Shown: piece by piece, positions 7,089-24,456 of the stretch | How the letters are laid out: each line of letters begins with the position of its first letter | Numbering within the stretch: the stretch's first letter is position 1 | Assembly (NCBI RefSeq): GCF_001921205.1 | Contig: NZ_MSIE01000008.1 | Location: forward strand, 1-64,000 | DNA from: Actinophytocola xanthii | GTDB taxonomy: Bacteria > Actinomycetota > Actinomycetes > Mycobacteriales > Pseudonocardiaceae | Direction: 5' to 3' | Length of the DNA: 64,000 nt | Position numbers and translations under genes: made by a program | Notes under the pieces: generated by a model | Seen by the model: the letters and a program-made list of their open reading frames with translations, nothing else | Told to the model about the DNA's origin: nothing | Databases searched by the model: none

Positions 7089-8288
7089 ATGACCCGACGC
7101 TGGCTGGTCCTCGCCGCCGGGGTCGCGGCGCAGGCGACCACGTCGAGCTTCCTGTACGGGGTCGCGTTCCTGATCCCGGAGCTCAGGGCGTCGACCGGGG
7201 TGTCGCTGGCCCAGGCGGGGTTGCTGGTGTCGGCACCGCTGCTTGGTCTGTTGGCCGCGTTGATCGCGTGGGGAGCGGCAGCGGACCGGTACGGCGAGCG
7301 CGTGGTGATGGCGGCGGGGTTGGTCGGGACCGGGGCGCTGTTGCTGGGCAGCCTGTTCGTGCCCGGCCTGGTGCTGCTCGGGGTGGGCCTGCTGCTCGCC
7401 GGCGCCGCCGCGGCGTCGGTGAACGCGGCCAGCGGACGGGCGGTACTCGGCTGGTTCGGCGCCCGCGAGCGCGGGCTGGCGATGGGGCTGCGGCAGACCG
7501 CGCAGCCGATCGGCGTGGGCATCGCCGCGGCGACCCTGCCTCCGCTCGCGGACCGGTTCGGCTTCGTGCCCGCACTGGCTCTCCCGGCGGGTTTGTGCCT
7601 GCTGACCGCGGTGGTGGTACTGGTCGTCGTGGTCGACCCACCGCGACCGCCGCGCCCGGCGGTCACCGAGTCGCCCTACCGGGCGCTGACCGGCCGGACA
7701 CTGGTCCGCCTGCACGCCGCGAGCGCGCTGTTGGTCGGCCCGCAGTTCGTGGCGGCGACGTTCGCGGTGGCGTTCCTGGTGTCCGAGCGGGGCTGGAGCC
7801 CGGTCGCGGCGGGCCGGCTGGTGGCGGTCGTGCAGGTGGCCGGCGCGGTGGGCCGGATCGTGGCGGGCGTGTGGTCGGACCGGGTCGGCAACCGCCTGGG
7901 TCCGATGCGCGTGATTGCCGTGGTCGCGATGGTCACGATGGTGGGGTGGGCCCTGGGCGACGCGTTCGACTCGTGGCTGTCGGTGGTGGCGCTGGTGGCG
8001 GTGCTGATCGTGTCGGTGACCGACAACGGTCTGGGTTTCACCGCGACGGCGGAGCTGGCCGGCCCGTTCTGGGCCGGCCGGGCGCTCGGCGTGCAGAACA
8101 CCGCCCAGAACGCGGTGGCGATGGCCGCGGCCCCGCTGTTCGGCGCGCTGATCACCGCGTTCGGGTACCCCCTGGCACTGGCCGCCGGGGCGCTGTTCCC
8201 ACTGGCCGGCGCCCTGCTCACCCCGGTCCAGGGCGAGCGCCGCCTAGCGGCTGGTGTCGACGCGGTGGAAGTTGAGGTACGCCCGTGA
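7089..8288 (+). CDS. MFS transporter
   Basis: A 399-aa major facilitator with about 12 hydrophobic segments. The loop between TM2 and TM3 reads [13 protein letters not shown], the MFS A-motif region, and [11 protein letters not shown] marks the equivalent loop in the second half. The substrate cannot be predicted. The last 45 bases overlap the 3' end of the opposite-strand dcd gene. The ATG at 7089 has only a weak upstream ribosome site, but no better in-frame start exists. Confidence 0.85.
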
Positions 8289-8825
8289 GGGGGTCGGCCC
8301 CCGCTGCCCCTGGTACCGCGAGCCGGCGGCCGTGGAGCCGTAGGGGTTCTCGGCGGCGCTGGAGAGGCGGAAGAGGCAGAGCTGGCCGATCTTCATGCCC
8401 GGCCAGAGGGTGATCGGCAGGTTGGCGACGTTGGACAGCTCGAGCGTGATGTGACCCTCGAAGCCGGGGTCGATGAACCCCGCGGTCGAGTGGGTGAGCA
8501 GCCCCAACCGCCCCAGGCTCGACTTCCCTTCCAGTCGCCCCGCGAGATCGTCCGGCAGCCGCACGGCCTCGAACGTGGAGCCGAGCACGAACTCCCCCGG
8601 ATGCAGAACGAACGGCTCGTCGTCCACCGCCTCGACGAGCGTGGTGAGGTCGTCCTGCTGCTGCCGCGGGTCGATGTGGGTGTACCGGGTGTTGTTGAAC
8701 ACCCGGAAGAAGCGGTCCAGCCGCACGTCGACGCTGGATGGCTGCACCATGGCCTCGTCGAACGGGTCGAGCCCCAGCCGCCCGTCCGCGAGCTCCTTGC
8801 GCAGATCCCGATCGCTCAGCAACAC
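8244..8825 (-). CDS. dcd: dCTP deaminase (dUMP-forming or dUTP-forming)
   Basis: A 193-aa enzyme that deaminates dCTP in pyrimidine deoxynucleotide synthesis. It begins [23 protein letters not shown], with PSSVDVRLD, the nucleotide-binding [10 protein letters not shown] motif and [21 protein letters not shown] near the catalytic site. This matches the dUTPase/dCTP deaminase trimeric fold, and the length is normal. Mycobacterial Dcd is bifunctional (dUMP-forming), which is likely here but not proven. Its 3' end overlaps the convergent MFS gene by 45 bases, and its 5' end is 60 bases from the divergent tRNA-Gly. Confidence 0.95.
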
Positions 8826-8885: not shown

Positions 8886-8959
8886 GCGGATGTAGTTCAA
8901 TGGTAGAACATCAGCTTCCCAAGCTGAGAACGCGGGTTCGATTCCCGTCATCCGCTCCA
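8886..8959 (+). tRNA. tRNA-Gly (anticodon CCC)
   Basis: A complete cloverleaf. The 7-bp acceptor stem GCGGATG/CATCCGC closes a D arm (GTTCAATGGTAGAAC), an anticodon stem TCAGC/GCTGA around loop TTCCCAA (anticodon CCC), and a T arm CGGGTTCGATTCCCG. The 3' CCA is encoded (8957-8959). The last 44 bases are duplicated at 11939-11982, so this gene is the apparent integration target of a mobile element. Confidence 0.96.
8916..8959 (+). repeat. 44-bp direct repeat, copy 1 (candidate attL inside tRNA-Gly)
   Basis: The sequence from the anticodon loop to the CCA end of tRNA-Gly. It is identical over 44 bases to 11939-11982, and the base 5' of the core differs between copies (C versus G). A tRNA 3' half duplicated in direct orientation is the classic outcome of tyrosine-integrase recombination. 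Confidence 0.85.
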
Positions 8960-8965
8960 AGCCAG

Positions 8966-9008
8966 AAGCCCCAGGTCACAGCATGTCTACTGTGGACCCG
9001 GGGGTTTG
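8966..9008 (+). terminator. Terminator-like hairpin after tRNA-Gly
   Basis: AAGCCCC and AGGTC pair imperfectly with GGACC and GGGGGTTT across a central loop. It resembles, with several changes, the perfect hairpin after the second tRNA fragment at 11989-12026, which implies common descent of the two tRNA-plus-terminator ends. Confidence 0.6.
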
Positions 9009-9099
9009 TCGTTTCTAGATCGCGAACCCTTGTCGTGCCCCCCGCGTGCCCCTAACCGGTCGATGCGAGCACTCCGGGAGGGTCGCACCTGGTTTGGCC

Positions 9100-9210
9100 A
9101 TGACAGTGCACGACCGCACGAGCCGCACGGAAAAGGGGATCCCCGTCCGGCACATGCGGTCGATTCTGCCCTCCGACCGCTGGACCGTGACCTACGAGGT
9201 CAAGTCGTGA
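9100..9210 (+). CDS. 36-aa small protein translationally coupled to a GNAT gene
   Basis: ATG at 9100, stop TGA at 9208-9210, product of 36 residues containing GIPVRHMRSILPSDRW and ending TYEVKS. The stop overlaps the GTG start of the acetyltransferase (GTGA), the usual sign of translational coupling. The codon choice is biased to G/C in third positions and the peptide is not the low-complexity type that out-of-frame GC-rich DNA gives. No ribosome site is obvious. I do not recognise the peptide; it could be a leader, a small partner of the acetyltransferase, or the tail of a lost gene. Confidence 0.45.
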   Translation: MTVHDRTSRTEKGIPVRHMRSILPSDRWTVTYEVKS

Positions 9211-9734
9211 CCAGGGGCTGGCTGCTGCGGCAGGCCGAGCCGGACGACCTTGACACAGTCTTGGAGATCCTCGGTCAACGGGTGGCCTGGCTGAGGCGAC
9301 GTGGGAGCGATCAGTGGTCGACGTTCCCCCGGTGGCCAGCGAAGCTGAAGGCATCAATCTCGCGGGGTGAAACATGGATCGCGGAGAGTCGGGAACATGA
9401 ACCGGTTGGAACGATCACGGTCTTTACCTCTGGGGACACGGACTTCTGGTCACCTGACGAACTTGCGATCCCCGCTCTGTACCTCGCCAAGCTAGCCACG
9501 CTGCCGCCAGACGCAGGCGCCCCGGATGTAGTGCACGGCCTCGGACAATTGATCCTGGAGTGGACTGTCGACTACGCGGCGAGAGCGCACCTGGCCGTGG
9601 TCAGGCTCGACGTCTGGCGGACGGCCCACGCACTGCACCGCTGGTACGAGCTGCATGGGTGGACGAAGGTGCGCACGATCGAGCTGCCGCACCGAAAGTC
9701 GGGCACGTTGTTCGAACGCCCCGCATCCCCCTGA
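9207..9734 (+). CDS. GNAT-family N-acetyltransferase
   Basis: A 175-aa protein starting VTRGWLLRQAEPDDLDTVLEI, the usual GNAT beta1-alpha1 opening. The middle contains WIAESREHEPVGTITVF (beta2-beta4), then LYLAKLATLPPDAGAPDVVHGLGQLILEW, the acetyl-CoA pyrophosphate-binding region. It ends with VVRLDVWRTAHALHRWYELHGW, typical of the C-terminal cofactor side. The substrate is unknown; small-molecule or drug acetylation is possible given the neighbouring MFS exporter. The GTG at 9207 overlaps the preceding 36-aa ORF stop. It lies within the tRNA-Gly island. Confidence 0.8.
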   Translation: MTRGWLLRQAEPDDLDTVLEILGQRVAWLRRRGSDQWSTFPRWPAKLKASISRGETWIAESREHEPVGTITVFTSGDTDFWSPDELAIPALYLAKLATLPPDAGAPDVVHGLGQLILEWTVDYAARAHLAVVRLDVWRTAHALHRWYELHGWTKVRTIELPHRKSGTLFERPASP

Positions 9735-10053
9735 CCGCCTCATCAGGCATCGTTCTGTTCCTCTTCGCAGCGGACACCGAACACCTACGAGAGTACCTAG
9801 GCGGCCCTGCCTGTAGGCGTTCCTCACCTGCGTGGGTGATCGGTCCGCAGCGGCAGAGCGGCGCCGGATCGAAACGGGGAGAGACTAGACGATCCGTCAG
9901 GGCTGTCACACCTGTCACACTGTCACTTGAGACCACTTGACCAGCGCATTTACCTGTGACAGCCAAGTGACAGCCGATCTCCGTAGGGCCTTCCCACACT
10001 CCTCCTCTGTCACAGCGTCCTTAGAGCGGGGCCGCACCGGATCCGCCGTCCGG
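9735..10053. other. Gene-free stretch inside the island with clustered TGTCAC hexamers
   Basis: About 320 bases between the acetyltransferase and the merR stop. No gene is supported. GC is lower than in the flanks, and the right half (9901-10013) carries the repeated hexamer described separately. Confidence 0.6.
9901..10013. repeat. Iteron-like TGTCAC/GTGACA cluster
   Basis: Six copies of TGTCAC in 110 bases: four forward (9904, 9913, 9921, 10008) and two inverted (9956, 9967). Three belong to a 9-mer GGCTGTCAC, forward at 9901 and inverted at 9956 and 9967. Spacing between the first three is 8-9 bases. This could be a protein-binding array such as replication iterons or a regulator operator set. 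Confidence 0.6.
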
Positions 10054-10440
10054 TCAGGACGACTGATCCGGTGCGGTGGAGTGCTCCGTCTCGGCGTTAG
10101 CGATGACGTCGTCGAGCACGTCCCGAGTTCGCCGCAGCTCGGCGATCTGCCGGTCGATGCGCGCGCGCTCGGCGCGCAGTCGGTCGACCAGCCGGGGTGT
10201 GGCGCGCTCGCTCGGCCGGCCGTCCACGTCGCGCATGCAGGGGAGGATGTCGAAGATCTTGGCGCTGTTGAGGCCGGCGGCGTACAGCTCCTGGATCCGG
10301 ATGACGCGGTCGAGCGCGGTCTCGGGGTAGGTGCGGTGCCCGCCGGCGGTTCGGGTCGGGACGAGTAGCCCCTGATCCTCGTAGTACCGGAGCGACCGGA
10401 CGCTCACGCCGGTCCGGTCAGCCAGCTCGCCGATCCGCAC
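10054..10440 (-). CDS. MerR-family regulator
   Basis: A 128-aa regulator with the MerR winged helix at the N-terminus (RIGELADRTGVSVRSLRYYE, then QGLLVPTRTAGGHRTY) and a long dimerisation helix (about 85-115). A single Cys sits in the effector-side segment DILPCMRD. It is not a metal-type MerR, because the paired C-terminal cysteines are absent; it more resembles MerR regulators of drug or small-molecule exporters. The GTG at 10440 is preferred because GGAGG lies five bases before it; another GTG is two codons upstream. It is divergent from the MFS gene at 10503 and probably controls it. Confidence 0.8.
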   Translation of the reverse strand: MRIGELADRTGVSVRSLRYYEDQGLLVPTRTAGGHRTYPETALDRVIRIQELYAAGLNSAKIFDILPCMRDVDGRPSERATPRLVDRLRAERARIDRQIAELRRTRDVLDDVIANAETEHSTAPDQSS

Positions 10441-10502
10441 ATCCACCTCCGCGCTGGATCGGACTTGATTCTAACATCGGTGTGAGGTTTCACCATTGCC
10501 CC

Positions 10503-11684
10503 GTGACTCGCACCGACCCCACCACGAACCGACTTGTCCTGTCGCCGCTCCTAGCGCTGGCGACAGCGGTGTTCATCACCAGCCTCACCGAGACCCTTCC
10601 CGCCGGTGTCCTCGTCGGGATGAGCGACGGCCTCGGCGTGTCCGACTCGACCATGGGCCAGGCCGTCACCGTCTACGCGGTGGGTACCGCCCTGACCGCG
10701 GTGCCGCTCAGCGCCGCCACGGCGCACTGGCGGCGCAAGCGCCTCCTGCTGACGGCGATGGCCGGTTTCCTCGCCGCCAACACGCTGACCGCTCTCGCCC
10801 CCACCTACGCGGTGGTCATGATCGCCCGGTTCCTCGCCGGAGCCGCGGCGGGCGTGGCGTGGTCCATGCTCGCCGGGTACGCAAGGCGGCTGGCCCCGCC
10901 CCGGCTGGCCGGACGGGCGACAGCCGTTGCCATGACTGGCGTTCCCCTCGCCCTCTCGCTCGGCGTCCCGGCCGGCACGTTCCTCGGTCACGTGCTGGAC
11001 TGGCGCGCCGCGTTCGGCGCTATGAGCCTGCTGACGATCGGCGTCCTCACCTGGATCGCCGTAGGCGTCGCGGATTTCCCCGGTGTGGCCCGCACGCGGG
11101 GCGACCGGAGGTCGATCCTGGTCGCGCTGGCGGTGCCGGGCGTCCCGGCGGTGCTGGCGGTCACGCTCGTCTTCGTGCTCGCGCACACGATCATCTACAC
11201 CTTCGTCGCCACCTACCTCGCCGACGCGGGTATGGCGGACCGGACCGACCTCGTTCTCCTGGTCTTCGGGATCGCGTGCCTGGTCAGCATCTGGCTCGTC
11301 GGGAAACGCGTCGACCGCGACCTCCGGCGACTCACCATCGCGAGCATCGGCCTCGTCGCCGCCGCGGCCATGGTGTTCGCCGTCACGCGGTCACCGTTCG
11401 CCGTCTACGTCGCGGCCGCGGCCTGGGGACTGGGCTGGGGAGGTGTTCCAACCCTGCTGCAGACGGCGGGCGCCGTCGCCGGCGGCCGGCACAGCGAGGC
11501 GGCGGCCGACGGAACCCAGTCCATGCTTGTCACCCTCTGGAACGCGGCGATGGCCTTCGGCGGCAGCGCGGGTGGGCTCGTCCTGGCCGTCGGCGGTGTG
11601 GTCGCCCTCCCCGCGGCGACGGCCCTGATGAGCCTCCCGGCGCTCCTCATCGTGGTCGCGGCCCGACGGCACGCGTTCCCGTGA
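10503..11684 (+). CDS. MFS exporter (AraJ/CmlA-like)
   Basis: A 393-aa, 12-segment major facilitator. TM1 reads LLALATAVFITSLTETLPAG, followed by GMSDGLGVSDSTMGQAVTVY, the pattern of the AraJ/chloramphenicol-exporter group. The A-motif region is ATAHWRRKRLLL, and a proline/glycine-rich TM5 (MTGVPLALSLGVPAGTFLG) matches the drug/H+ antiporter motif C. The GTG at 10503 is taken as start. The intergenic region of about 60 bases is shared with the divergent merR gene, so MerR control in response to an exported compound is the simplest reading. Confidence 0.83.
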   Translation: MTRTDPTTNRLVLSPLLALATAVFITSLTETLPAGVLVGMSDGLGVSDSTMGQAVTVYAVGTALTAVPLSAATAHWRRKRLLLTAMAGFLAANTLTALAPTYAVVMIARFLAGAAAGVAWSMLAGYARRLAPPRLAGRATAVAMTGVPLALSLGVPAGTFLGHVLDWRAAFGAMSLLTIGVLTWIAVGVADFPGVARTRGDRRSILVALAVPGVPAVLAVTLVFVLAHTIIYTFVATYLADAGMADRTDLVLLVFGIACLVSIWLVGKRVDRDLRRLTIASIGLVAAAAMVFAVTRSPFAVYVAAAAWGLGWGGVPTLLQTAGAVAGGRHSEAAADGTQSMLVTLWNAAMAFGGSAGGLVLAVGGVVALPAATALMSLPALLIVVAARRHAFP

Positions 11685-11938
11685 CGCGCGCGGACGACCA
11701 CGATCTCGGCCTTTCGGTCGATGGTGGCCGCCGCGTGTTCTCGCCGCTGGGAACCCAAACGTCGAAGGCTCAATGCCGGTCGTTTCGCTGCCCCGGAAGG
11801 CACCTATTGATCTTAAACATGCCTGTTTTCGCTGCTCGCCGACCGCGGGTTGATCTTCTGTCAGCAGCGGTAAACAACGGTCACCTGAAGTCCGACAAAG
11901 CAGCAGTTCAGGCTACCTTTTCAGCGGCGTTGGGCTGG
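11685..11938. other. Low-GC, gene-free right end of the island
   Basis: No gene is supported on either strand. Composition is clearly less GC-rich than the flanking genes, with stretches such as ATTGATCTTAAACATGCC. It is most likely decayed foreign DNA next to the attachment-site copy at 11939. Confidence 0.5.
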
Positions 11939-11982
11939 TTCCCAAGCTGAGAACGCGGGTTCGATTCCCGTCATCCGCTCCA
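11939..11982 (+). repeat. 44-bp direct repeat, copy 2 (displaced tRNA-Gly 3' half, candidate attR)
   Basis: Identical to the last 44 bases of the tRNA-Gly gene (8916-8959), including the CCA end. The preceding bases do not supply an acceptor, D or 5' anticodon strand, so this is a tRNA fragment. It is followed by a perfect terminator, which suggests this is the original 3' end pushed away by insertion. Confidence 0.85.
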
Positions 11983-11988
11983 CACACA

Positions 11989-12026
11989 AAACCCCAGGTC
12001 GTCGCACTGTGGACGCCCTGGGGTTT
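11989..12026 (+). terminator. Intrinsic terminator after the tRNA-Gly fragment
   Basis: A perfect 10-bp stem, AAACCCCAGG (11989-11998) with CCTGGGGTTT (12017-12026), around an 18-base loop. Its position directly after the duplicated tRNA end suggests it is the ancestral tRNA-Gly terminator. Confidence 0.8.
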
Positions 12027-12099
12027 GTCGTGTTGCAGGCGTGCTACCTGATCGCGCCAGGTGGTACTCCGGCCGGTTCGTGAGCACGGCGACCTGTCG

Positions 12100-12888
12100 T
12101 CAGAGACCCGCGAACCTTGTCAGCGCCGCGTCGTTTCCGAGTTCGGCTCGTGCGGCGGGATTCTCCAGGTAGAAGCGCACCGCGCGGTACAGCAGCGCGG
12201 GGTCCGCGGCCAGGAAACGCCCCTGTACGGCCAGGTGTGGCGCGAACGCCAGCTCTCCCTGCCGCCACGCCGACGAGGTGCGCCGCACCCACCCGGTCGT
12301 GTTCGCCGCCGCGATCACCTGTACGAGCGGCCCCCGAACGTCGGCCGGAACTACCTCCACCACGTCGTTCCAGGGTAGGTACGAGCGCATGGCCCACGAG
12401 CGGTGGTAGATCCCGCTCGGGGTCAGCGCAACGAGTCCCGTTTGGAGCCGCCCGCGGGCCAGGTCGATCACGCACCACAACAGGTAGCCGCACACCAGCA
12501 ACGCCGCCACCAGCAGTGCCACGCCCCCGCCGCCCCCAGCGGCCAACCCGCCGACCGCGATCAGCCCGAAGAACAGCAGACAGTAGACGCCCGCCACAAC
12601 GTATCCCCACCCGAGAGCGGCTGAGTACGGCAGGACGACCCCGCGCTCCGCCAGTTCAGCCACCTCGCGCACGGCCAGGCCGCCGGTGCCTTGCCGACGT
12701 GCCCGGGACAGGTACACCAGTGCGCCGGCGACGATCAGCAACGGGCTCCCCACCAGCAGGATGCCGACCCCGTCCGTGGAGACCGCGGCAACTCCCAGTA
12801 CGAGGCCGCCGGCACCGGCCGACCCGAGCAGCACCGCTGTCACGAGCCACGACGTCCGGCGTTGGACCGGCCACGGCTGAGTGGTCAC
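12100..12888 (-). CDS. Multi-pass membrane protein with cytoplasmic C-terminal domain, last gene of the T7SS-like cassette
   Basis: A 262-aa protein of unknown family. Hydrophobic segments at about 14-36 and 40-60 are followed by a soluble loop, then two more at about 93-115 and 122-145. The C-terminal half (about 150-262) alternates beta strands and could be PH-like: LVALTPSGIYHRSWAMRS, then YLPWNDVVEVVPAD. It starts with GTG two bases after the stop of the type VII effector-like gene, so the two are surely cotranscribed. Its position after an effector with a hydrophobic C-terminus makes an immunity function possible, though this is inference. Confidence 0.6.
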   Translation of the reverse strand: MTTQPWPVQRRTSWLVTAVLLGSAGAGGLVLGVAAVSTDGVGILLVGSPLLIVAGALVYLSRARRQGTGGLAVREVAELAERGVVLPYSAALGWGYVVAGVYCLLFFGLIAVGGLAAGGGGGVALLVAALLVCGYLLWCVIDLARGRLQTGLVALTPSGIYHRSWAMRSYLPWNDVVEVVPADVRGPLVQVIAAANTTGWVRRTSSAWRQGELAFAPHLAVQGRFLAADPALLYRAVRFYLENPAARAELGNDAALTRFAGL

Positions 12889-12890
12889 AG

Positions 12891-14165
12891 CTAGAAGATA
12901 GAGTCCCAGACCTTCTTGGCTCCGTCCGCCACCGCTTCCGCACCGTCACCGACCGCATCGCCCACCGCGGACACGCCTTGCTCGAACGGCTTGGTGATGC
13001 TGTCGGGCAACGCGTCGTAGGCAGCGTCGGCGACCCCGCTCGCTACCAGCCCGACGCCGATTCCGACGACCGCGCCGACTGGTCCCCCGATCGCCGCACC
13101 GACGGCGACCGACGCCCCGAACCCGGCCAGTCCGGACACGATGGCCTTTCCGGCCGGCTTGCCGGTGTGGATGTCGTAGCCGACTCCGGCGGCGGTGATG
13201 GCGAGACCCACGACTGGCACGTGCCGCAGTACGGGTGCGGAACGGCTGAGCATGGGGTTCAGCATCCGCGAGACGCCGCCGGCGCGCTTTGCCGCTGCCT
13301 CGGCGGCTTCGGTGGACAGCGCGTTGTTGTACATCTGGCCGGAGATCCGGAGTCGTTCGGCCTGCATCGCGCGCAGGGCGCCGGCGTTCGATCCGCCAGC
13401 GAGATCGTCGGTGGATCCCATGCCCCGTTGGGCGAGCCAGCGCGCCACGTCCGCGGAGCGGGTCTCCGCGCCGACCGACACATATCGCTGCGCCAGCGTC
13501 TCGCCGTACGCGGCAAGCGCTTGCGCCTGGCCGCGCAATGCACTGGCGTTCGCCGCCGCGAGGGCACCCGCGACGCCGGTGCCCAGGTCCGCGGCCTGGA
13601 ATGCGGCCTTACCGGTCAGGTCGGCCCACATGTTCTGAGCGACCTGCTTGCCGAAGTCGAGTATCGAGCGCGCGGCGCTGGCCTCGGTCTGCGCCTCGTC
13701 GTAGGCGACGACCTGACGCGCATGAGCGTTCTGCGCCTGCACCGCGGACCGGTGGGCGGCGGCCTCCTCAGCAGACGCGTCCGGCGCGAGCGTGCCCGGG
13801 TCGGCCGGTGCTGGGCCGGGGTCGAGAATCTGGGTGCTGGTCAGCGTCAGCCCACCGGCAGCGGCGATCTCGCGGGCGCGGGCCATGCGGGTCAGCGCGG
13901 TCTGTAAGTCGTCGGCGAAGACCTCCATCGACTGGCCAGCCGCGTCTGCGTCGGCGGCCAAGGTGTCGGCCTTGCCGCCGCCGCTGGTCATCCTCGCCCG
14001 GAACTTGTCGCCCGCCTCGCCGAGCCAGTCCGCTTCGGAGTTGGTGCGAGCGGCGTAGATCTGTGTCGTGCAGTTGTGGATGCCGGGGGACAGCGTGCCG
14101 CGCATCCAGCGGGCAGCACCGCGAATGCTCTCCGGGTCACCGTCGATCTTGGTGTCGATGGGCAT
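12891..14165 (-). CDS. Putative type VII-secreted effector with WXG-like N-terminus and glycine-zipper C-terminus
   Basis: A 424-aa protein. The N-terminal 100 residues are helical and carry the WxG turn as WLG at 47-49 in SEADWLGEAGDKFRARM, as in proteins with a predicted T7SS secretion-signal domain. A long Ala/Gln-rich helical middle (about 100-300) follows. The C-terminal third has a proline-hinged hydrophobic run, VPVVGLAITAAGVGYD, then glycine-zipper stretches GFGASVAVGAAIGGPVGAVV (about 345-375) and a short amphipathic end. That composition fits membrane insertion. The gene sits between a small ESX-like protein and a membrane protein in a four-gene operon. No catalytic toxin domain is recognisable. 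Confidence 0.65.
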   Translation of the reverse strand: MPIDTKIDGDPESIRGAARWMRGTLSPGIHNCTTQIYAARTNSEADWLGEAGDKFRARMTSGGGKADTLAADADAAGQSMEVFADDLQTALTRMARAREIAAAGGLTLTSTQILDPGPAPADPGTLAPDASAEEAAAHRSAVQAQNAHARQVVAYDEAQTEASAARSILDFGKQVAQNMWADLTGKAAFQAADLGTGVAGALAAANASALRGQAQALAAYGETLAQRYVSVGAETRSADVARWLAQRGMGSTDDLAGGSNAGALRAMQAERLRISGQMYNNALSTEAAEAAAKRAGGVSRMLNPMLSRSAPVLRHVPVVGLAITAAGVGYDIHTGKPAGKAIVSGLAGFGASVAVGAAIGGPVGAVVGIGVGLVASGVADAAYDALPDSITKPFEQGVSAVGDAVGDGAEAVADGAKKVWDSIF

Positions 14166-14190
14166 GAGTTCCTCAGGTACGGGATAGCTG

Positions 14191-14466
14191 CTACTGGACG
14201 ATGGGCAGGCCCTGCCGGGCCGAGTCCTCCAGGTTCAGATAGGTCTCGGAGCCGGCGGCAACGTTGTCTCCCGCGATGCCCACACCGAGGACGACTTCCG
14301 CCGCGCTGTCGGTGAAGCCGACGATCATCATGGTCAGAGCGCCGGTGAGGTCGCCCGCGTCGGGAGCGGGTGGCGGGGCCCCGATGCCGCCGAGGTTGGA
14401 GCCGGCGGAGCGCAGGGTGCTCGCGATACCCTCGAGCCCGCCGTCGACGCTGTAGCCGTCGGTCAT
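14191..14466 (-). CDS. Small ESX/WXG100-like partner protein
   Basis: A 91-aa protein without a signal peptide, starting MTDGYSVDGGLEGIASTL and containing a central Gly/Pro linker and the helix VGFTDSAAEVVLGVGIAGDN. Size, operon position and lack of Cys fit the small helical partners that pair with T7SS effectors in actinobacteria. The canonical WxG turn is not obvious, so assignment is by context. It overlaps the upstream gene by four bases and lies 25 bases before the effector-like gene. Confidence 0.5.
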   Translation of the reverse strand: MTDGYSVDGGLEGIASTLRSAGSNLGGIGAPPPAPDAGDLTGALTMMIVGFTDSAAEVVLGVGIAGDNVAAGSETYLNLEDSARQGLPIVQ

Positions 14467-14759
14467 CGCGCAGCCGCCGCCTTCCTGCGGTGTTCCTCCG
14501 GTACCTCCAGATCAAGCAAGATCATGTCGAAACGCACTCGCTCGGCGATCTTGTCCAGGTCGACGGTCGGCATCACAACCCATGGCTGGTTGGGTCCGCA
14601 GCAGCTCACCAGCCGGTCGAGTGCGGAGTAGACAAGCAACGCGACGCGGCCGTCGCGGGTCGGGCGGAGGTCGACGGCCAGCTCACCACCCTGGATGTCG
14701 TCCGAACACGGCACGTACACCACGGGCGGAAGTTGGGCCTGGTGTCCGTTCATGTCCAT
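14463..14759 (-). CDS. SAV_915-like small protein, first gene of the T7SS-like cassette
   Basis: A 98-aa soluble protein with PPVVYVPCSDDIQGGELAV, LRPTRDGRVALLVYSALDRL, SCCGPNQPWVVMPT and DMILLDLEVPEEHR. This pattern of a VYVPC opening, an ALLVYSALDRL strand and a CCG-QPW segment resembles the actinobacterial SAV_915 family, often found next to WXG-type secreted proteins; no biochemical role is established. The ATG at 14759 is chosen (another ATG is two codons in). The end overlaps the next gene by ATGA. Confidence 0.55.
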   Translation of the reverse strand: MDMNGHQAQLPPVVYVPCSDDIQGGELAVDLRPTRDGRVALLVYSALDRLVSCCGPNQPWVVMPTVDLDKIAERVRFDMILLDLEVPEEHRRKAAAAR

Positions 14760-15000
14760 CTGACACCGCCTAGGACAACGGGTGACGGCACGGTGACCGC
14801 CACGCCGTCGTTCGCAGGACAATTCGGTCCCACATGCCCTCCTTGAATGACACTTGGCTCATCGCCGCAGCGGCTGCCGCCACCATATATATCTCGCGAC
14901 GAAAGGACCGCCTCACGTTGCCGCGTGGCTACGTGCTGCCACTGCATAGCCGCGCGGGCCGCACGGGAAACCCGGGGCTGTCCGGACGACAGACGCGCGC

Positions 15001-15034
15001 AGCCCGATCGGGGTCCCGGTACCCCGATCGGGCT
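15001..15034. terminator. Perfect hairpin between the T7SS cassette and the CU044_5270 gene
   Basis: A 14-bp perfect inverted repeat, AGCCCGATCGGGGT with ACCCCGATCGGGCT, around a 6-base loop. It lies just after the stop at 15049 in the minus direction and should end transcription of the sigma-factor operon. Symmetry makes it bidirectional. Confidence 0.75.
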
Positions 15035-15048
15035 GTCCTCGTTCGACG

Positions 15049-16092
15049 TCAGCGGGCGGGTAGTGCGCCCAGCTCGCCCACGACCGATGTGGACAGCGCG
15101 CTGTAGCTGATGACCGTGCCGGCCGGTAGCTCGCCGCCGGCCAGCACCGTCGTGCGGCCGCCGATGTACTGGCCCGTCTTCGAATCGATGATCACTTCTT
15201 CGCGCTTGCCGTTCCGGTCGATGCCGAAGCTGATGCCGATTCGACCGTCGAGGTTGGCGTTCCTGTCCTTGATCTTCAGGTCGGGGACGAACGCCAGCGC
15301 CCGGTAGAGGTTGGCACGCAGGGCGGCCGGCATCAGCCCGCGCTGGATCGCGTCGTCCACGAACTCCAGGACCGCTGCCGCAGGATCGTCGCCATCCTCC
15401 TCGGCCTCGTCCAGGATCTCCTCGTAGAGCTCCTCGGGGTCGGTGGGAAGCTCGGCCACGAACTCCGGGGTCGGCTCCTGCCAGCTGCCCTCTCGCTCGC
15501 AGGGTCGCATGCCGCCTTCCGGGTAGAAGTCGCCGCACTTCGCGCGGCGCACTTCCGGGCTCGGGGCATCGGGGTCGACGCCCGCTGCCCGTAGCTCCGC
15601 TTCGGTGCCCTGCAACCACTCGCGCTTCCCGGTTGCGTAACTGCGCTGCATCCACTCCTGGTTCCGGTCGTAGGGAACCCAGGTCTGGATGACGTTCTCC
15701 TGAAGGTAGGACACCGTGCGCCCGCTCTCCGACATGCGGCGCTCGGCCTCCGACATGCCGTCCTTGGCCAGAACGTAGCTACCCATGTCCCACCTGTGGG
15801 ATTCCACGTACAGGTACTGACCCGGCGCCACGACGGGGTCGGCGGAGCCGATCTTGTCCGCGGCGCTGTTCAACGCCTCCGCGACTGCGGCGGAGGCGAC
15901 TGGGGTTTCGCCGAACGGGGCCTGCGCCACCACGACTCCCGCGGCCACCGCCGCGACGGTGCCGACCGCGGCCACCCATCGCGCCCGGTGGCGTTTCGGG
16001 GCCGTGGCGGTAGCGGCCGGGTGCTCCGCCGCCAACAGGTGTCCGTGCTGGGTCAGCAGCCGGTCAAGCAGCTGATCTTCGAACTTACCCAT
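15049..16092 (-). CDS. CU044_5270-family protein (sigma-factor partner)
   Basis: A 347-aa protein with a cytoplasmic N-terminus (MGKFEDQLLDRLLTQHG), one transmembrane segment (about 40-62, WVAAVGTVAAVAAGVVVAQA) and a large extracytoplasmic domain. It shows GQYLYVESHRWDMGSY near the start of that domain and TGQYIGGRTTVLAGG towards the end. Such proteins are regularly encoded after ECF sigma factors and are thought to be anti-sigma or sensing partners; direct proof is limited. The ATG at 16092 has a GGTGAG ribosome site and overlaps the sigma gene by eight bases. Confidence 0.75.
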   Translation of the reverse strand: MGKFEDQLLDRLLTQHGHLLAAEHPAATATAPKRHRARWVAAVGTVAAVAAGVVVAQAPFGETPVASAAVAEALNSAADKIGSADPVVAPGQYLYVESHRWDMGSYVLAKDGMSEAERRMSESGRTVSYLQENVIQTWVPYDRNQEWMQRSYATGKREWLQGTEAELRAAGVDPDAPSPEVRRAKCGDFYPEGGMRPCEREGSWQEPTPEFVAELPTDPEELYEEILDEAEEDGDDPAAAVLEFVDDAIQRGLMPAALRANLYRALAFVPDLKIKDRNANLDGRIGISFGIDRNGKREEVIIDSKTGQYIGGRTTVLAGGELPAGTVISYSALSTSVVGELGALPAR

Positions 16093-16648
16093 GGTTCTCA
16101 CCCACGACCTTCCTCAACCTGCCACGCGCCCGGAACAGCCTGATCCGCATCGCGCCCGGCGAGATGCCGAGCGCGACAGCTGCCTCCCCCCGGTCCATTC
16201 CGGCGATGTCCACCAGCTCGATGACGTCACGATCCGCCTGGGACAGCTCAGCCATCCCGTCGAGCAGCGCCCGCCCCGACCGTTCCGCGTCGATCCGGAC
16301 GACCAGTTCCGCGGCCTCGTCGACGTCCAGCTCCCGCCATCCGGCGAGCCGGGCCGCGGCATCCCTGCCCCGGCTCACTCCCTCGCAGTACCGGGCGAAG
16401 ACGTGCCGGGCAATGCCGAGCAGCCAGCCGCGTGGACTTCCACGAGCGGGGTCGAATGCCGCGAACGAGGTGATCGCCCGTACGAAGGTGTCCGCGGTGA
16501 GGTCAGCGACGTTCTGCGGGTCACGGGTTCGCCGGGCGAAGTACGCGGTCACGTCTCGCACGTGTGCGCGGTACACCTGCTCGAACTCGGCGATCCGCCC
16601 CCCTGGCGGGGCCTCGGCGCGGTGGGGCCTGGCCATGATCTCGTTCAC
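16085..16648 (-). CDS. ECF-type RNA polymerase sigma factor
   Basis: A 187-aa sigma factor. Region 2 contains FEQVYRAHVRDVTAYFARRT, DLTADTFVRAITSFAAFD and RGWLLGIARHVFARY. Region 4 contains MAELSQADRDVIELVDIAGM and AAVALGISPGAMRIRLFRAR, the -35-recognition helix-turn-helix. It is followed by its overlapping membrane partner, the usual regulatory pair layout. Target promoters are not evident here. Confidence 0.88.
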   Translation of the reverse strand: MNEIMARPHRAEAPPGGRIAEFEQVYRAHVRDVTAYFARRTRDPQNVADLTADTFVRAITSFAAFDPARGSPRGWLLGIARHVFARYCEGVSRGRDAAARLAGWRELDVDEAAELVVRIDAERSGRALLDGMAELSQADRDVIELVDIAGMDRGEAAVALGISPGAMRIRLFRARGRLRKVVGENHG

Positions 16649-16705
16649 GGTAACTGGTTGCCGTGGCGCGAACAGGCCGTTACACGAGCGGCTACGGCCG
16701 TCGCA

Positions 16706-17461
16706 CTACGACGAGGTCGTGGGCTTCACGGCGCGGATGATCGCCGAGTGCATGCCGTCGGCGACCTGGTGGGTGGGGGTGACAGCCACCTCGGTGAAGC
16801 CGGCTGACTCGAGGCCCTGGCGGTACTCGCTGATCGAGAGCGCCCCGGCGATGCAGCCGACGTAGGAGCCGCGCTCGGCCCGCTGGTCGGGAGTCACCGT
16901 GTCCTCGGCGACCACGTCGGACACGCCCATCCGGCCGCCGGGGGTGAGAACGCGGAAGATCTCGGCGAAGACGGCTGGCTTGTCCACCGACAGGTTGATC
17001 ACGCAGTTGGAGATCACCACGTCCACCGCCTCGGCGGGGAGTGGGACGTTCTCGATGTCTCCCTTGAGGAACTCGACGTTCTCCGCCCCGGCCTTCGCCG
17101 CGTTGGTGCGGGCCAGCGACAGCATCTCCTCGGTCATGTCCACGCCGTAGGCCTTGCCGGTCGGGCCGACGCGGCGGGCCGACAGCAGCACGTCGATCCC
17201 GCCGCCGGAACCGAGGTCGAGGACGACCTCACCGGGGCGCAGGTCGGCCACCGCCGTGGGGTTGCCGCAGCCCAGGGACGCGGCCACCGCTTCGACGGGA
17301 AGCTCGACCCGCTCGTCGGCCGGATACCGGGCGGCGCCGAACCTCTCGTCCACCTCGACGGCTTGGGGACCGCAGCATCCGCCGCCGGCACTGACGGCTG
17401 TCGCCGCCGCAGCGTAGCGAGCCCGGACCGTCTCGCGCAGATCTTCGGTGTGCTCGGTCAT
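16706..17461 (-). CDS. arsM: Arsenite S-adenosylmethionine methyltransferase
   Basis: A 251-aa class I methyltransferase that methylates As(III). The SAM site is DLGSGGGID at 82-90. Arsenite-binding cysteines are present: Cys29-Cys30 in GGGCCG, Cys153 in SNCVINLS and Cys203 in YVGCIAGAL; the last two match the conserved catalytic pair. Cys65 lies in SLGCGNP. ArsM-type length and order are normal. It is divergent from arsR-arsC over an 86-base intergenic region, so ArsR control by arsenite is expected. Confidence 0.92.
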
Positions 17462-17547
17462 GAAAAGGACTCCTTTCGACGCTGCATAGATGGATGTCCA
17501 ATCACCTTGCCCGTTGGATCGAAGGGTGTCAATATAGAAAGGTGTCG
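17462..17547. promoter_or_regulatory. Shared arsM/arsR promoter region
   Basis: An AT-richer 86-base region between arsM and arsR. On the plus strand TTGCCC (about 17507) and AATATA (17531-17536) could be -35 and -10 boxes for arsR, with GAAAGG (17537-17542) as ribosome site. On the minus strand TTGACA faces arsM. A precise ArsR operator could not be fixed by eye. Confidence 0.5.
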
Positions 17548-17880
17548 ATGTCTTCCTGTTGCGCCGAGCTCACGACGGCTCCGCTGTCCGAGGAGCGCGC
17601 CGCCGAGATCGCGCCCGTGTTCAAGGCGTTGGGCGACCCGGTGCGGTTGCGGCTCCTGTCGATGATCGGGTCGGGCGCCGGGGGCGAGGTCTGCGTCTGC
17701 GAGCTGACGCCGGCCTTCGACCTCTCCCAGCCGACCATCTCCCACCACCTGAAGCTCCTGCGCCAGGCCGGGCTGATCGACTCCGAGCGTCGCGGCACCT
17801 GGGTCTACTACCGGCTCCGTCCCGAGACGACCGACATGCTCGCGTCGTTGCTCCGCCGACCTGCCGAGGTGACGGCGTGA
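17548..17880 (+). CDS. arsR: Arsenic-responsive repressor ArsR
   Basis: A 110-aa ArsR/SmtB winged-helix repressor. FKALGDPVRLRLLSMI (25-40) precedes the metal site EVCVCELT with Cys49 and Cys51, the ELCVCDL-type arsenite/antimonite sensor at the start of helix alpha-3. The recognition helix is DLSQPTISHHLKLLRQAGL (58-76), and the wing is RRGTWVYYRL. A further Cys pair (4-5) near the N-terminus may also bind metalloid. The ATG at 17548 is chosen for its GAAAGG ribosome site; an upstream ATG would start within the promoter. It overlaps arsC by four bases. Confidence 0.9.
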   Translation: MSSCCAELTTAPLSEERAAEIAPVFKALGDPVRLRLLSMIGSGAGGEVCVCELTPAFDLSQPTISHHLKLLRQAGLIDSERRGTWVYYRLRPETTDMLASLLRRPAEVTA

Positions 17881-18283
17881 GCGCGGACCTGCCTTCGGTT
17901 CTCTTCGTCTGCGTGCACAACGCCGGCCGGTCGCAGATGGCGGCCGCGTTTCTCACCCACCTGGCGCGGGGGCGGGTCGAGGTTCGCTCGGCGGGCTCCC
18001 AACCCGCGGACGCGGTCAACCCGGTGGTCGTCGAGGCCATGTCCGAGGTGGGCATCGACATCGCCGCCGAAGTGCCGAAGGTGCTGACCGTCGACGCCGT
18101 GCAGGCCAGCGACGTGGTCATCACGATGGGGTGCGGCGACGCCTGCCCGATCTTTCCGGGCAGGCGGTACCTCGACTGGCAGCTCGACGACCCGGCCGGC
18201 CGTGAGCTGGCAGCGGTGCGGTCGGTTCGCGACGACATCGAGCGGCGGGTCCGCGACCTGCTGCCGACGCTGGTCGAGCGCTC

Positions 18284-18302
<19 letters not shown>
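17877..18302 (+). CDS. arsC: Arsenate reductase (LMW-PTP type, probably mycothiol/thioredoxin-linked)
   Basis: A 141-aa low-molecular-weight phosphatase-like arsenate reductase. The P-loop is CVHNAGRS with nucleophile Cys12 and Arg18. A second thiol motif, TMGCGDACP with Cys86 and Cys90, resembles ArsC enzymes that resolve through intramolecular cysteines or mycothiol. DWQLDDP contains the general-acid Asp region. The GTG start overlaps arsR by four bases. Its last 19 bases overlap the convergent uvrA-like gene. No ArsB or Acr3 pump gene follows. Confidence 0.9.
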
Positions 18303-20680
<2,378 letters not shown>

Positions 20681-20709
20681 CGTGTCTCCATCTGTTGGGC
20701 CGGAACGGC

Positions 20710-21120
20710 TCAGCGCGCCTCGTTGATGCGGACCGTGTTGCCGGCGGGGTCCCGGAAGGCGCAGTCGCGGACCCCGTACGGCTGCTCGGTCGGCTCCTGG
20801 ACGACCTCGGCGCCACCGGCCTGCACCTGTTCGAAGGTGCCGTCGAGGTCCTTCGTGGACAGAATGATGCTGCTGTAGGTGCCCTTGGCCATCATCTCGG
20901 CGATCATGCGGCGCTCGTCGTCGGTGATGCCCGGGTCGGCGCCGGGCGGATACAGGACGATGGACGTGCCAGGCTGCCCGGTCGGGCCGACCGTGATCCA
21001 GCGGTGCTCGCCGTACCCGACGTCGTTGCGCACCTCGAAGCCGAGGACGTCGCGGTAGAAGGCCAGGGACGCCTCGGCGTCCTCGTGCGGGAGGAACGTG
21101 GCGTTGATGGTGATGTCCAT
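20710..21120 (-). CDS. VOC-family (glyoxalase/bleomycin-resistance-like) protein
   Basis: A 136-aa vicinal-oxygen-chelate fold protein starting MDITINATFLPHEDAEASLAFYRDVLGFEVR. It has the second-repeat ending PYGVRDCAFRDPAGNTVRI. The group includes glyoxalase I, dioxygenases and drug-binding resistance proteins; the substrate cannot be told. It sits between an AraC-type regulator (10 bases upstream) and the uvrA-like gene (29 bases downstream), probably one operon. The ATG at 21120 fits the family start; a GTG lies three codons upstream. Confidence 0.82.
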   Translation of the reverse strand: MDITINATFLPHEDAEASLAFYRDVLGFEVRNDVGYGEHRWITVGPTGQPGTSIVLYPPGADPGITDDERRMIAEMMAKGTYSSIILSTKDLDGTFEQVQAGGAEVVQEPTEQPYGVRDCAFRDPAGNTVRINEAR

Positions 21121-21130
21121 GGCGGCCACG

Positions 21131-21571
<441 letters not shown>

Positions 21572-21628
21572 CCGCGCGATGCTGCCACATCGGACCGACA
21601 AACGGGCGAGCGATGACGTCCATGGTTC

Positions 21629-22219
21629 GTGGGGGGGTGTCCGTTGCCGGATGACGGGCTGGCGGATGACGCGCTGACGGATGACGCGCTGGAGCGGGTG
21701 CTCGTCACCGGGCCGCGGCCGGTGGTGGTCGAGCTGGCCGAGTACGACCCGGGGTGGCCGGCGCGGTTCGAGCGGCGGGCGCGTGAGGTGCGTCGGCTGC
21801 TCGGAGAGCGGGCTCGGCTGGTTGAACACGTGGGGTCGACGTCGGTCCCCGGGCTCGCGGCCAAGCCGATCATCGACATCGTCGTGGGGATCGACGATCC
21901 GGAGGACGAGGGTGCCTACCTCCACGACCTCCAGGCGGCCGGTTACGAGCTGCGGGTGCGGGAGCCGGCGCACCGCTGCCTGCGCGCCGGCGAACCCGAC
22001 GAGCCGGTGAACCTGCACTGCTATCCCCCGGACCACCCCGAGGTCCGCAAGGTCCTCCTGTTCCGCGACCGGCTGCGCGACGACGACGCCGACCGGCGGC
22101 TGTACGAGGACGTGAAACGAGGGCTCGCCGGCCGGCGGTGGCCGGACGTCAACTACTACGCCGAGGCGAAGGGTCCGGTGATCGAGGCGATCCTCGCCCG
22201 GGCGGGCTGGCGGGCGTGA
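21629..22219 (+). CDS. GrpB-family protein (UPF0157 nucleotidyltransferase-like)
   Basis: A 196-aa GrpB/UPF0157 protein: VELAEYDPGWPARFERRA, LVEHVGSTSVPGLAAKPIIDIVVGI and NLHCYPPDHPEVRK are the family hallmarks, and HVGSTSVPG with the following D-x-D resembles a minimal nucleotidyltransferase site. The function is unknown; members are sometimes fused to CoaE. The N-terminal 25 residues are encoded by imperfect tandem repeats of about 15 bases (21648-21690), so the true start may be a later GTG near 21695. Confidence 0.82.
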   Translation: MGGCPLPDDGLADDALTDDALERVLVTGPRPVVVELAEYDPGWPARFERRAREVRRLLGERARLVEHVGSTSVPGLAAKPIIDIVVGIDDPEDEGAYLHDLQAAGYELRVREPAHRCLRAGEPDEPVNLHCYPPDHPEVRKVLLFRDRLRDDDADRRLYEDVKRGLAGRRWPDVNYYAEAKGPVIEAILARAGWRA

Positions 22220-22273
22220 CCGCGCACCGACCCGGGAGACTGGCCGAAACGCCGTGGGGAACGGGGGCATGGG

Positions 22274-23842
22274 GTGGCAGCGGTGCGGGCCCGGGGTTTC
22301 CGGGCGGTGGGTGTCGACGCGGCGTACTCCGCCTTTCCGAGCATCTGCCGGTTCGAGTCGGGGGACTACCGACTGGTCTGGCGGCAGGGCAGCGACCATG
22401 TCGCCTCCCGGGACGGCGTGGTCCGGACGTCGGTCTCCACCGACGGGGGCCTGAGCTGGGGGGCGGCCTCGACGGCCGTCGCCGGGCCGGCCGGCCGTGA
22501 CCTGCGGGACCCGTGCATCGCCACCTCGAACGGAACCACCTGGCTGACCTACTTCGCCGGAACGACCAGCGATCCGGCGATGGGCGCGTTCGTTCGGATC
22601 TCCCAGGACCAGGGCGCTTTCTGGGGTGATGAGATCCGGATCGACCCGGAGCAGCCGTACGCGGCGATCTCCGCGCCCGTCGTGGCGCTGGGCGACGGGC
22701 GGCTCCTCGCCGCCTACTACGGCAGGGACACCGGCCACCCGTCCGACTCGTGCTGGCTCGCCACCTCGGCCGACGGCGGGCTCAGCTGGACCCGCACGCC
22801 GGTCGCGGACGGTCCGGCCGCGGGTACGCACTTCCAGGAACCCTGGCTCGTCACGCGCGGCGCCGAGGTGTGGATGCTCTTCCGCCACGGCAACCGCTCC
22901 GGCATCGGCGCCGCCGTCTCCACCGACGGCGGCGTGAGCTGGTCGAAGCCGGTGGAGCTGTTCCGGGACGCGACGGGACGCCCGGCCGCCGCCTGGCTGG
23001 AGTCCGGCGCGCTGGCCGTGGTCGTGCGGCGGATCTCCGACCGCCAGCCGGTCGTGCGCACCAGAGAGGCCGCCGGTGGATGGCTGCCCGCCAAACGCAC
23101 GCTGAACCAGCCGGCGGCCGGCCCGCTGGGCATGCAGTACGCGCACCCGCTGGTCGTCCCGGGCGGCGTGGTCTGCCCGATCGGCATCGAGCACGACCCG
23201 ACCTCCGCCAGCCTGCACGTCGGCTGGCTCGCCGACTCCGCTGGCCGGTCCCCGCTCGGTGACGTCTTCCCGGACGAGCAGCTCGCCGTCGCGGCCGACC
23301 TGGACCACCTGCTGGTCGCCGACGCCTTCACCCGGGTCGACGGTCCGCTGACCTGGCCGTGGCAGGTCGGCGCGGGGGACCTCGCAGTCGCCGACGGCTA
23401 CGTCGTGTCCCCGTTCGCCGACGACACCCCCGGCCTGGCCTGGCAGGACGTCGGCACTCCCGACGTCGACCTCAGCGGGGACTTCTGGTGGACGGGGCAG
23501 GCCGGGTACGGGCTCCTCGGCCGCGTCGCCGGACCCGGCGCCTACCTGCTGCTGACCGTGGAGACCGGCGGCACCGCCCTGCGGCTCTACCGGGTCAACG
23601 CCGGTACCGCCACCCAGCTCGCCGCCGCCGCGGTTGCCGTTCCCCCGGCGACCTGGACCCGGCTGCGCCTGGAGCTGCGCGGCAACCGACTTCAGGGGTT
23701 CCTCAACGGGGCGGCGCTGGTGGCCCACAGCCTCACCGGGTCCGAGCAGGCCGACTTCCTGGGCCGCGGCGGGCACGGGATCAAGCTGAACGCCCAGGGC
23801 GACGGGGTGCACCGCTGTCGGCTGTGCACCGTCCGCGCCTGA
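22274..23842 (+). CDS. BNR/Asp-box sialidase-fold protein
   Basis: A 522-aa protein with four Asp-box motifs, STDGGLSWG, DQGAFWG, ADGGLSWT and STDGGVSWS, in the first 250 residues. These mark a sialidase-like beta-propeller. The C-terminal part (about 350-522) reads like a concanavalin-type laminin-G/lectin domain (TWTRLRLELRGNRLQGFLNG). No clear signal peptide is seen with the GTG start at 22274, so export is uncertain. A glycoside hydrolase or sugar-binding role is possible, but the substrate is unknown. It converges on the DUF4304 gene 13 bases away. Confidence 0.72.
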   Translation: MAAVRARGFRAVGVDAAYSAFPSICRFESGDYRLVWRQGSDHVASRDGVVRTSVSTDGGLSWGAASTAVAGPAGRDLRDPCIATSNGTTWLTYFAGTTSDPAMGAFVRISQDQGAFWGDEIRIDPEQPYAAISAPVVALGDGRLLAAYYGRDTGHPSDSCWLATSADGGLSWTRTPVADGPAAGTHFQEPWLVTRGAEVWMLFRHGNRSGIGAAVSTDGGVSWSKPVELFRDATGRPAAAWLESGALAVVVRRISDRQPVVRTREAAGGWLPAKRTLNQPAAGPLGMQYAHPLVVPGGVVCPIGIEHDPTSASLHVGWLADSAGRSPLGDVFPDEQLAVAADLDHLLVADAFTRVDGPLTWPWQVGAGDLAVADGYVVSPFADDTPGLAWQDVGTPDVDLSGDFWWTGQAGYGLLGRVAGPGAYLLLTVETGGTALRLYRVNAGTATQLAAAAVAVPPATWTRLRLELRGNRLQGFLNGAALVAHSLTGSEQADFLGRGGHGIKLNAQGDGVHRCRLCTVRA

Positions 23843-23855
23843 CGCGCGAGCGGCG

Positions 23856-24314
23856 TCAGCCCTGCTGCCGCATGCGGGTCTGCATCGCGGGCAGCGCGAA
23901 CTCCCGAACGGCCGTGAGGACCTCGCCGGAGAGCGAGTCGAACGGGCGACCCACCTCCAGCTCCCACCACAGCTCGCCGATCGGGTATCCGGCGACCATG
24001 ACCAGCGCGCCGATCGGGCTCTGCCAGCCCATATGTCCCCTGGCGCCGTCGCTGGCCGGGTAGTACGGGCGGACCCGCAACTGCTCCGCCCACTCGTCCC
24101 GCGAGATCACTCCGACGTGGACCGTGAAGCGCACGGCACGCGCGGTGAACGAGCGGGCCTGCTCCACGAGTATCTCGCCCCAGTGCCGCGCGCCCTCGAT
24201 GCGGAACCGGCGGCCGACGCCGAAGAACCCGAGCGCGCGTAACCCCGGGGCCAGGTTGGTGTCCACCATAAACCTGAACCAGTCTTGCGCGTTGCGCTCG
24301 ATATCGGACTCCAC
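23856..24314 (-). CDS. DUF4304-like protein
   Basis: A 152-aa soluble protein: LAPGLRALGFFGVGRRFRIEG, VEQARSFTARAVRFTVHVGV and GELWWELEVGRP. The pattern of a GF-x-x-x-GR-x-F opening followed by a FTV-x-GV strand resembles DUF4304. No catalytic residue can be named. It starts with GTG and diverges from the LuxR-type gene. Confidence 0.6.
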   Translation of the reverse strand: MESDIERNAQDWFRFMVDTNLAPGLRALGFFGVGRRFRIEGARHWGEILVEQARSFTARAVRFTVHVGVISRDEWAEQLRVRPYYPASDGARGHMGWQSPIGALVMVAGYPIGELWWELEVGRPFDSLSGEVLTAVREFALPAMQTRMRQQG

Positions 24315-24456
24315 AGTGACACCAACAGTAGCGGGACGAACCCAGCCGGTGCTAAGTGTTCGTTATCGCCCGTCTCCAAATTCTCCTCCGCCGACGCGTC
24401 ACGCCCCGAGGCTGTCCGCGTCCCAGATCTGGGACATGACCAGCGAGGAGGGCAGG

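Follow-up and report, generated by a model that had tools for sequence, protein, structure and literature searches.

Remains of a probable integrative element behind tRNA-Gly(CCC) in Actinophytocola xanthii

According to the definition given in PMC5704250, cis-mobilizable elements (CIMEs) derive from integrative elements by decay, retain attL and attR, have lost the genes for integration and transfer, and become mobilizable in cis through accretion with an integrative and conjugative element (ICE). The examples described are mainly streptococcal, together with the toxicogenic region TR1 of Streptomyces, which is found beside the ICE TR2 and relies on another element for its transfer (PMC8369830). 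The actinomycete integrative and conjugative elements (AICEs), such as the pSAM2-like ones treated in PMC3218068, integrate at the 3' end of tRNA genes and hold an integrase, a Rep protein and an FtsK-type transfer gene. Here, an interval of about 3 kb is described that lies behind the tRNA-Gly(CCC) gene of Actinophytocola xanthii, in a stretch of 64,000 nucleotides (the window) that is part of a 235-kb contig of a draft genome (8.34 Mb, 204 contigs).

This interval is most likely what remains, much reduced in size, of a mobile element that formerly had its own integrase. It can be regarded as a collapsed AICE which, mobility aside, falls under the CIME definition as worded in PMC5704250, being a well preserved representative of a known kind. 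Like CIMEs, it is bounded by att copies (cores identical at 44/44 positions, ends of the family type), has no detectable integrase, RepSA or FtsK gene, and holds remains of an integrative element as well as cargo. A stub is all that is left of the integration gene, the transfer genes are gone, and decay from an integrative element can be read from the family-type ends and from the junction between the integrase stub and a truncated gntR gene, which a single deletion may have created. Unlike the CIME examples described, its parent would be an AICE at tRNA-Gly(CCC), and its mobilization is putative. TR1 is likewise actinobacterial and bounded by att sites; however, it is located at aviX1, measures 20 kb and has a mobilizing ICE adjoining it (PMC8369830), whereas no integrase adjoining the interval was found in 8960-24500. 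The complete relatives of the interval resemble AICEs in carrying an integrase, RepSA (PF20199) and FtsK/SpoIIIE (PF01580), and the interval itself resembles them in its position at a tRNA 3' end, but it has none of these three proteins and is not a member of that class. Integrative mobilizable elements have their own integrase, which the interval does not.

The two ends of the interval and the integrase stub

The tRNA-Gly(CCC) gene (8886-8959, plus strand), the integration target, has an encoded CCA, is the only tRNA found by ARAGORN in the window and is divergent from dcd (8244-8825, minus strand). Its last 44 bases, from tRNA base 31 to the CCA end (8916-8959, plus strand; the left core copy, on the attL side), are repeated exactly and in direct orientation at 11939-11982 (plus strand; the right core copy, attR), as an earlier sequence-only reading of this DNA had claimed, and no third copy at 34/44 or better exists elsewhere in the window on either strand. 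Chance cannot reasonably account for an exact repeat of 44 bases within a stretch of 64 kb. The bases directly before and directly after the core differ between the two copies, and core copies in other elements likewise start at about tRNA base 31. Aligned from this base on, the two copies share 81.8% identity over 99 columns, core included (0.55 for the tails alone), and hairpin terminators of related style follow both, also as claimed. The ancestral tRNA end was further said to seem displaced; this stands for the copy at 11939-11982, but the tail after 11982 need not be ancestral, since that of the genus mate G001 is different.

The left end starts with a tail containing a hairpin terminator (8960-9012, plus strand). 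An nhmmer profile of 10 left ends matched the window at 8961-9054 (E = 1.3e-12); it was made from 10 other loci, without the window or its genus mates. Eight of these loci have two cores, whereas the stretches of L069 and L204 contain no second one. Next come two GTGCC repeats with a spacing of 11 bp (9035-9054, plus strand), putative arm-type sites for the integrase, which are the top window position for a 28-bp profile of six other loci (6.0 versus 4.28 bits for the next one). Sixteen of the 24 other loci examined have a pair of GTGCC-like repeats, 11 bp apart, at +77 or +78, and 14 of the 24 combine a first repeat at +77 with a stop codon on the integrase strand at +94. The window follows the same pattern, with the first repeat at +78 and a stop in the integrase register at +95. 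This stop codon (9052-9054) and about seven to eight further codons constitute the 3' stub of the integrase gene (9052-9078, minus strand), in which the residues before the stop (...GVLASTG) bear a slight likeness to those of others (...GALVPAT, ...GTLVPVS, ...QPVPVG).

The stub adjoins, at about 9078/9079, the C-terminal remnant of a GntR-type (UTRA) regulator whose gene lacks its 5' part (9079-9210, plus strand). The plus strand from 9079 encodes the last 43 codons of this regulator, corresponding to positions 220-261 of 269 in a profile (E = 3.5e-14) made from seven genes directly upstream of homologues of the next gene in the interval (9207-9734), an arrangement seen in seven of nine loci examined. 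All three parent gntR genes tested out of these seven hold PF00392 and PF07702. The complete element L212 has a gntR gene with both domains between its FtsK-type gene and its right core. As this position is a long way to the right of integrase, RepSA and FtsK, one deletion could remove all of them. That the sequence passes from a stub of about seven codons beside the GTGCC repeats straight into the 3' part of gntR explains the missing recombinase. In agreement with the sequence-only reading, which saw no recombinase, a six-frame search of 8960-24500 with a profile of five related integrase sequences gave nothing credible, between the core copies or beyond them (best E = 1.3), and phmmer with the proteins of the complete element L088 (E ≤ 1e-4) detected neither RepSA nor FtsK between the core copies.

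The right end (11839-11938, plus strand) ranks first among all window positions on both strands with a profile built from the 100 bp that precede the second core in 10 other elements, scoring 7.6 bits versus -17.9 for the next position (a 25-bit margin). Model R1, which comprises the right end plus core of 14 elements with the window left out, gives 74.9 bits at 11859-11980, compared to 48.2 for the tRNA itself. Recognizable parts are CGGTAA/CGGTCA repeats 10 bp apart (11868 and 11878), a GCAGTTCAGG box (11903-11912) and a CTGG before the core. The displaced copy is followed by a tail with a hairpin terminator (11986-12059, plus strand). A second element starting at 11983 is not supported by this tail, which is without repeats like those at 9035 (its repeat-block score ranks 1708th) and in which the terminator match to the left-end profile is weak (10.3 bits, E = 0.02).

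An alternative reading of 9018-9059 as the integrase C-terminus RGTRGARQ..., by comparison with the tRNA-Gly(TCC) integrase of G183, was dropped in favour of the in-register stop because the likeness stems from the GGGGCAC repeats themselves. The repeat GGGGCACGCGGGGGGCACG occurs close to tRNA-Gly(TCC) or tRNA-Ala genes in L203 (G183), where it lies inside an integrase gene, L200 (G372) and L201 (G387), and is perhaps an integrase arm-site motif common to several tRNA targets.

The tRNA-Gly(CCC) site in the genus and in the family

The site was compared in five genus mates. G001 has an unoccupied site, in which the tRNA lacks an encoded CCA and is followed about 250 bp on by a DUF4304 homologue, whose window counterpart is located at 23856-24314; the exact join of 8959 to 11983 that the sequence-only reading had expected in relatives was not found in any genome. 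In G004, only 1.6 kb separate the tRNA from the end of its contig. On a different contig, a mutated core copy (93%), which is a displaced tRNA end, precedes a tail resembling that of G001 (81% over 158 bp, core included), and the DUF4304 neighbourhood follows 1.6 kb further on. A truncated tyrosine integrase is found near the tRNA in G002, and an integrase C-terminal remnant adjoins it in G003. Sequence 9060-11938 is absent beside the tRNA in the compared loci of the five genus mates (only the 1.6 kb on the contig in G004). Parts of the interval are matched at other places in G001, G003, G004 and G005, and none in G002 at E ≤ 1e-10.

Because the unoccupied G001 has a different tail and no encoded CCA, the right-hand tail of the window probably comes from an earlier occupation of the site. 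A candidate ancestral tail was sought in the window and rejected: within 8-25 kb, the sequence behind the G001 tRNA matched nothing at E < 0.05 apart from the tRNA copies and the DUF4304 gene, and the oldest displaced end must therefore have been lost or have decayed too far. Nor was a link between the encoded CCA and past integration upheld, as elements are also found at tRNAs that lack an encoded CCA, such as those of L088 and L212. The displaced copy is still identical at 44/44 positions, unlike the mutated one of G004, which suggests that the event was recent or that the copy underwent conversion with the tRNA.

The region from the displaced end to the DUF4304 gene (11983-23855) is likewise absent beside the tRNA in G001 and G005, and its first 4.7 kb show only weak genus-mate matches, near 15.1-15.7 kb. 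Among the compared loci, a UvrA-like gene (18284-20680) is common at this locus to G002 only. The whole region looks like older layers of the same hotspot.

In the family, up to 20 kb behind the tRNA were taken from 60 genomes (about 10 kb for two stretches; rows short of the tRNA or near a contig end were left out). Clear second copies of the tRNA end are present in four of the 60 (L088, L107, L125 and L126), and weaker ones (68-81%) in four more (L087, L108, L116 and L117). L088 (G219) is a complete element with a PF00589 integrase beside the tRNA, RepSA (E = 5.1e-98), FtsK/SpoIIIE (E = 3.2e-12) and a second core at a distance of 9978 bp. The sequence-only reading had proposed to look in relatives for larger elements that combine this core with an integrase, and such elements were found. 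Three genus mates of G219 (G235, G243 and G250; L073, L086 and L090) have a very similar tail, with no second core and no integrase match in the stretch. Further elements, between 1 and 11 kb long and both with and without an integrase, came to light in the genera g4 and g16 through a search with the window tail.

Applied to 390 family genomes, model R1 gave some match in 389 of them because it also picks up bare tRNA genes; in the resulting list, the window is the 78th row. Twenty loci were taken in rank order and not by integrase, leaving out those from earlier routes and one contig-start locus; selection by a right-end-plus-core model favours elements with an intact right end. The tRNA is in the stretch in 18 of the 20, and all 18 have a second core. 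An integrase frame of at least 370 aa is found in 11 of these 18 loci, 10 of which also have RepSA and FtsK matches (in pieces in L301), L307 having the integrase only. The full integrase is missing in the other seven (L292, L294, L299, L300, L303, L310 and L311). Of 15 two-core loci from other routes, seven have an integrase frame of at least 370 aa and eight do not; this count left out L204 and L216, whose stretches contain only one core, and L217, which duplicates L088.

Stubs longer than that of the window remain in L209 (69 aa), L292 (52 aa) and L311 (97 aa), and two short intervals, L292 (0.86 kb) and L299 (1.25 kb), hold GTGCC/GGGCC repeats and little else. Tandem arrangements occur as well: L125 has integrase remnants behind two core copies, and L308 has two large integrases and, if the core within the tRNA is included, three cores. 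Judged mostly by titles, no publication on tRNA-Gly(CCC) elements of such kind was noticed. Possible defence cargo is encoded in two loci with two cores and no integrase match, namely DNA methylase and Vsr genes in L107 (G134) and DNA methylase and AAA genes in L126 (G099).

Insertion followed by deletion and its competitors

It is highly probable that an AICE was inserted by its integrase and later suffered an internal deletion, leaving a CIME without an integrase of its own. A tyrosine integrase would have recombined the 44-bp core common to the element and the tRNA, so that the copy of the element rebuilt the tRNA and the resident tRNA end was pushed to 11939-11982. A later deletion with an edge at about 9078/9079 would have removed the integrase, all but about its last seven codons, and, presumably in the same step, the genes for replication and transfer as well as the 5' portion of gntR. 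It would have spared the cargo and the two termini with their putative binding repeats for Int and Xis. The locus has the core copies, both family-type ends and the gntR remnant, and there are complete relatives at the same tRNA; the single step and the roles of the repeats are what the model adds. Insertion of the integrase type with attL and attR, as proposed from the sequence alone, is supported by the fact that both ends match integrase-bearing elements at this tRNA in other genomes.

Several observations weigh against this explanation. First of all, no genome was found that joins 8959 exactly to 11983, and therefore the insertion is deduced from architecture; nor did the search reveal an undeleted parent carrying this cargo. 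At the right end, the repeat block alone ranks 12th of 127,930 positions, the strong score needing the whole 100 bp, and the GTGCC/GGGCC repeats that many relatives have near -95 were not seen by eye in the window. At the left end, the pattern used did not show the repeat pair in eight of the 24 other loci (L305, L309, L311, L300, L310, L208, L210 and L205, with a variant seen by eye in L309 and L300), and in two loci, L038 and L069, the repeats are present but the scanned positions contain no stop. Taken by itself, the gntR piece of 43 aa matches no Pfam family at E ≤ 0.01. Finally, there are tandem elements at this tRNA (L125 and L308), and therefore the two ends could stem from two elements.

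This last point leads to the strongest competitor, in which the left end (attL and integrase stub) and the right end (right arm and attR) belonged to two tandem elements and a deletion between them produced a hybrid. The course of events would be as described above, with two parents instead of one. Frankia AICEs in tandem or with several att sites, as reported in PMC3218068, represent a related arrangement. Still, we consider such a hybrid unlikely, given that one deletion in one element suffices, as the position of gntR in L212 illustrates.

A second possibility, considerably less probable, is a satellite origin: the interval would have lacked an integrase from the start and would have relied throughout on that of an AICE acting in trans, in the way that phage satellites depend on helper functions. 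The seven of 18 loci without a full integrase, including the short repeat-bearing L292 and L299, would fit such a life style. However, the in-register integrase stop with its last codons and the 5'-cut gntR indicate loss and not original absence, and L209, L292 and L311 keep even longer stubs.

Segmental duplication or gene conversion without site-specific recombination would account for hairpin terminators of like style behind both copies, but it is hardly credible when integrase-bearing elements have repeats that end near the same position of the tRNA, and when the second copy is preceded by 100 bp of the kind found at the right ends of elements. An assembly artefact in which the 44-bp repeat joined unrelated contigs, conceivable in a draft of 204 contigs, can practically be dismissed, since the order and orientation of both ends are those expected of a single element and the part of the window at 18.3-20.6 kb is found on the same side of the tRNA in G002.

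Cargo, mobility and meaning

The first cargo gene (9207-9734, plus strand) encodes 175 aa from a GTG and has matches at E ≤ 1e-10 in 45 of 200 family genomes, its own included. The sequence-only reading called it a GNAT; the gene does have homologues, but its product matches no model of Pfam (E ≤ 0.001) or NCBIfam (E ≤ 0.01). The MerR/MFS pair identified in the same reading is confirmed by Pfam, with a MerR-family regulator (10054-10446, minus strand; PF13411, E = 5.7e-18) and an MFS transporter (10482-11684, plus strand; PF07690, E = 3.3e-34). The nearest NCBIfam models for the transporter stay far under their cut-offs (e.g., Cmx/CmrA, 118.5 of 400 bits), and a scan of named genomes with the MFS protein gave 35 loci with relatives of this protein in other genera. 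Among the best 20 of 184 and the best 20 of 776 records of plasmid and phage matches, the MFS region or the tRNA is what is covered, and one listed plasmid match also takes in part of merR. Several TGTCAC/GTGACA motifs at 9900-10010, between the first cargo gene and merR, mark a possible operator or promoter region. Displaced ends resembling tRNA-Gly(TCC) were seen in L041 (G000:C124, own genome) and L042 (G004:C157), the latter about 2.7 kb from a homologue of the first cargo gene that has an internal stop.

The genome of A. xanthii has 14 PF00589 matches, 12 of them over the cut-off, and five of the 14 loci show similarity to the L088 integrase (E ≤ 1e-10). The nearest one, beside tRNA-Gly(TCC), shows 43-45% identity to three tRNA-Gly(CCC) integrases, which are 57-66% identical among themselves, and two further integrases show 23-25%. 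None of the 14 matches in the draft looks to be of the tRNA-Gly(CCC) type. The element is probably fixed now unless a related AICE enters the cell, and a related integrase might still excise it.

The deletion by which a mobile element became cargo that is apparently fixed can be placed to within a few bases, and the model of right end plus tRNA core offers a way to find integrase-less remnants. Since the same tRNA in relatives holds everything from complete AICEs down to intervals of about 1 kb, decay and possible re-use become testable. It is a tentative and rather improbable suggestion that AICEs of the family at tRNA-Gly(CCC) repeatedly collapse into a class of short cargo-only satellites, with both termini and Int/Xis sites, that are excised or extended in trans or in cis by incoming AICEs of the same specificity. 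If this were true, tRNA-Gly(CCC) would be a reloadable cargo slot, and the recurrence of collapsed intervals at this one tRNA is the part most worth following.

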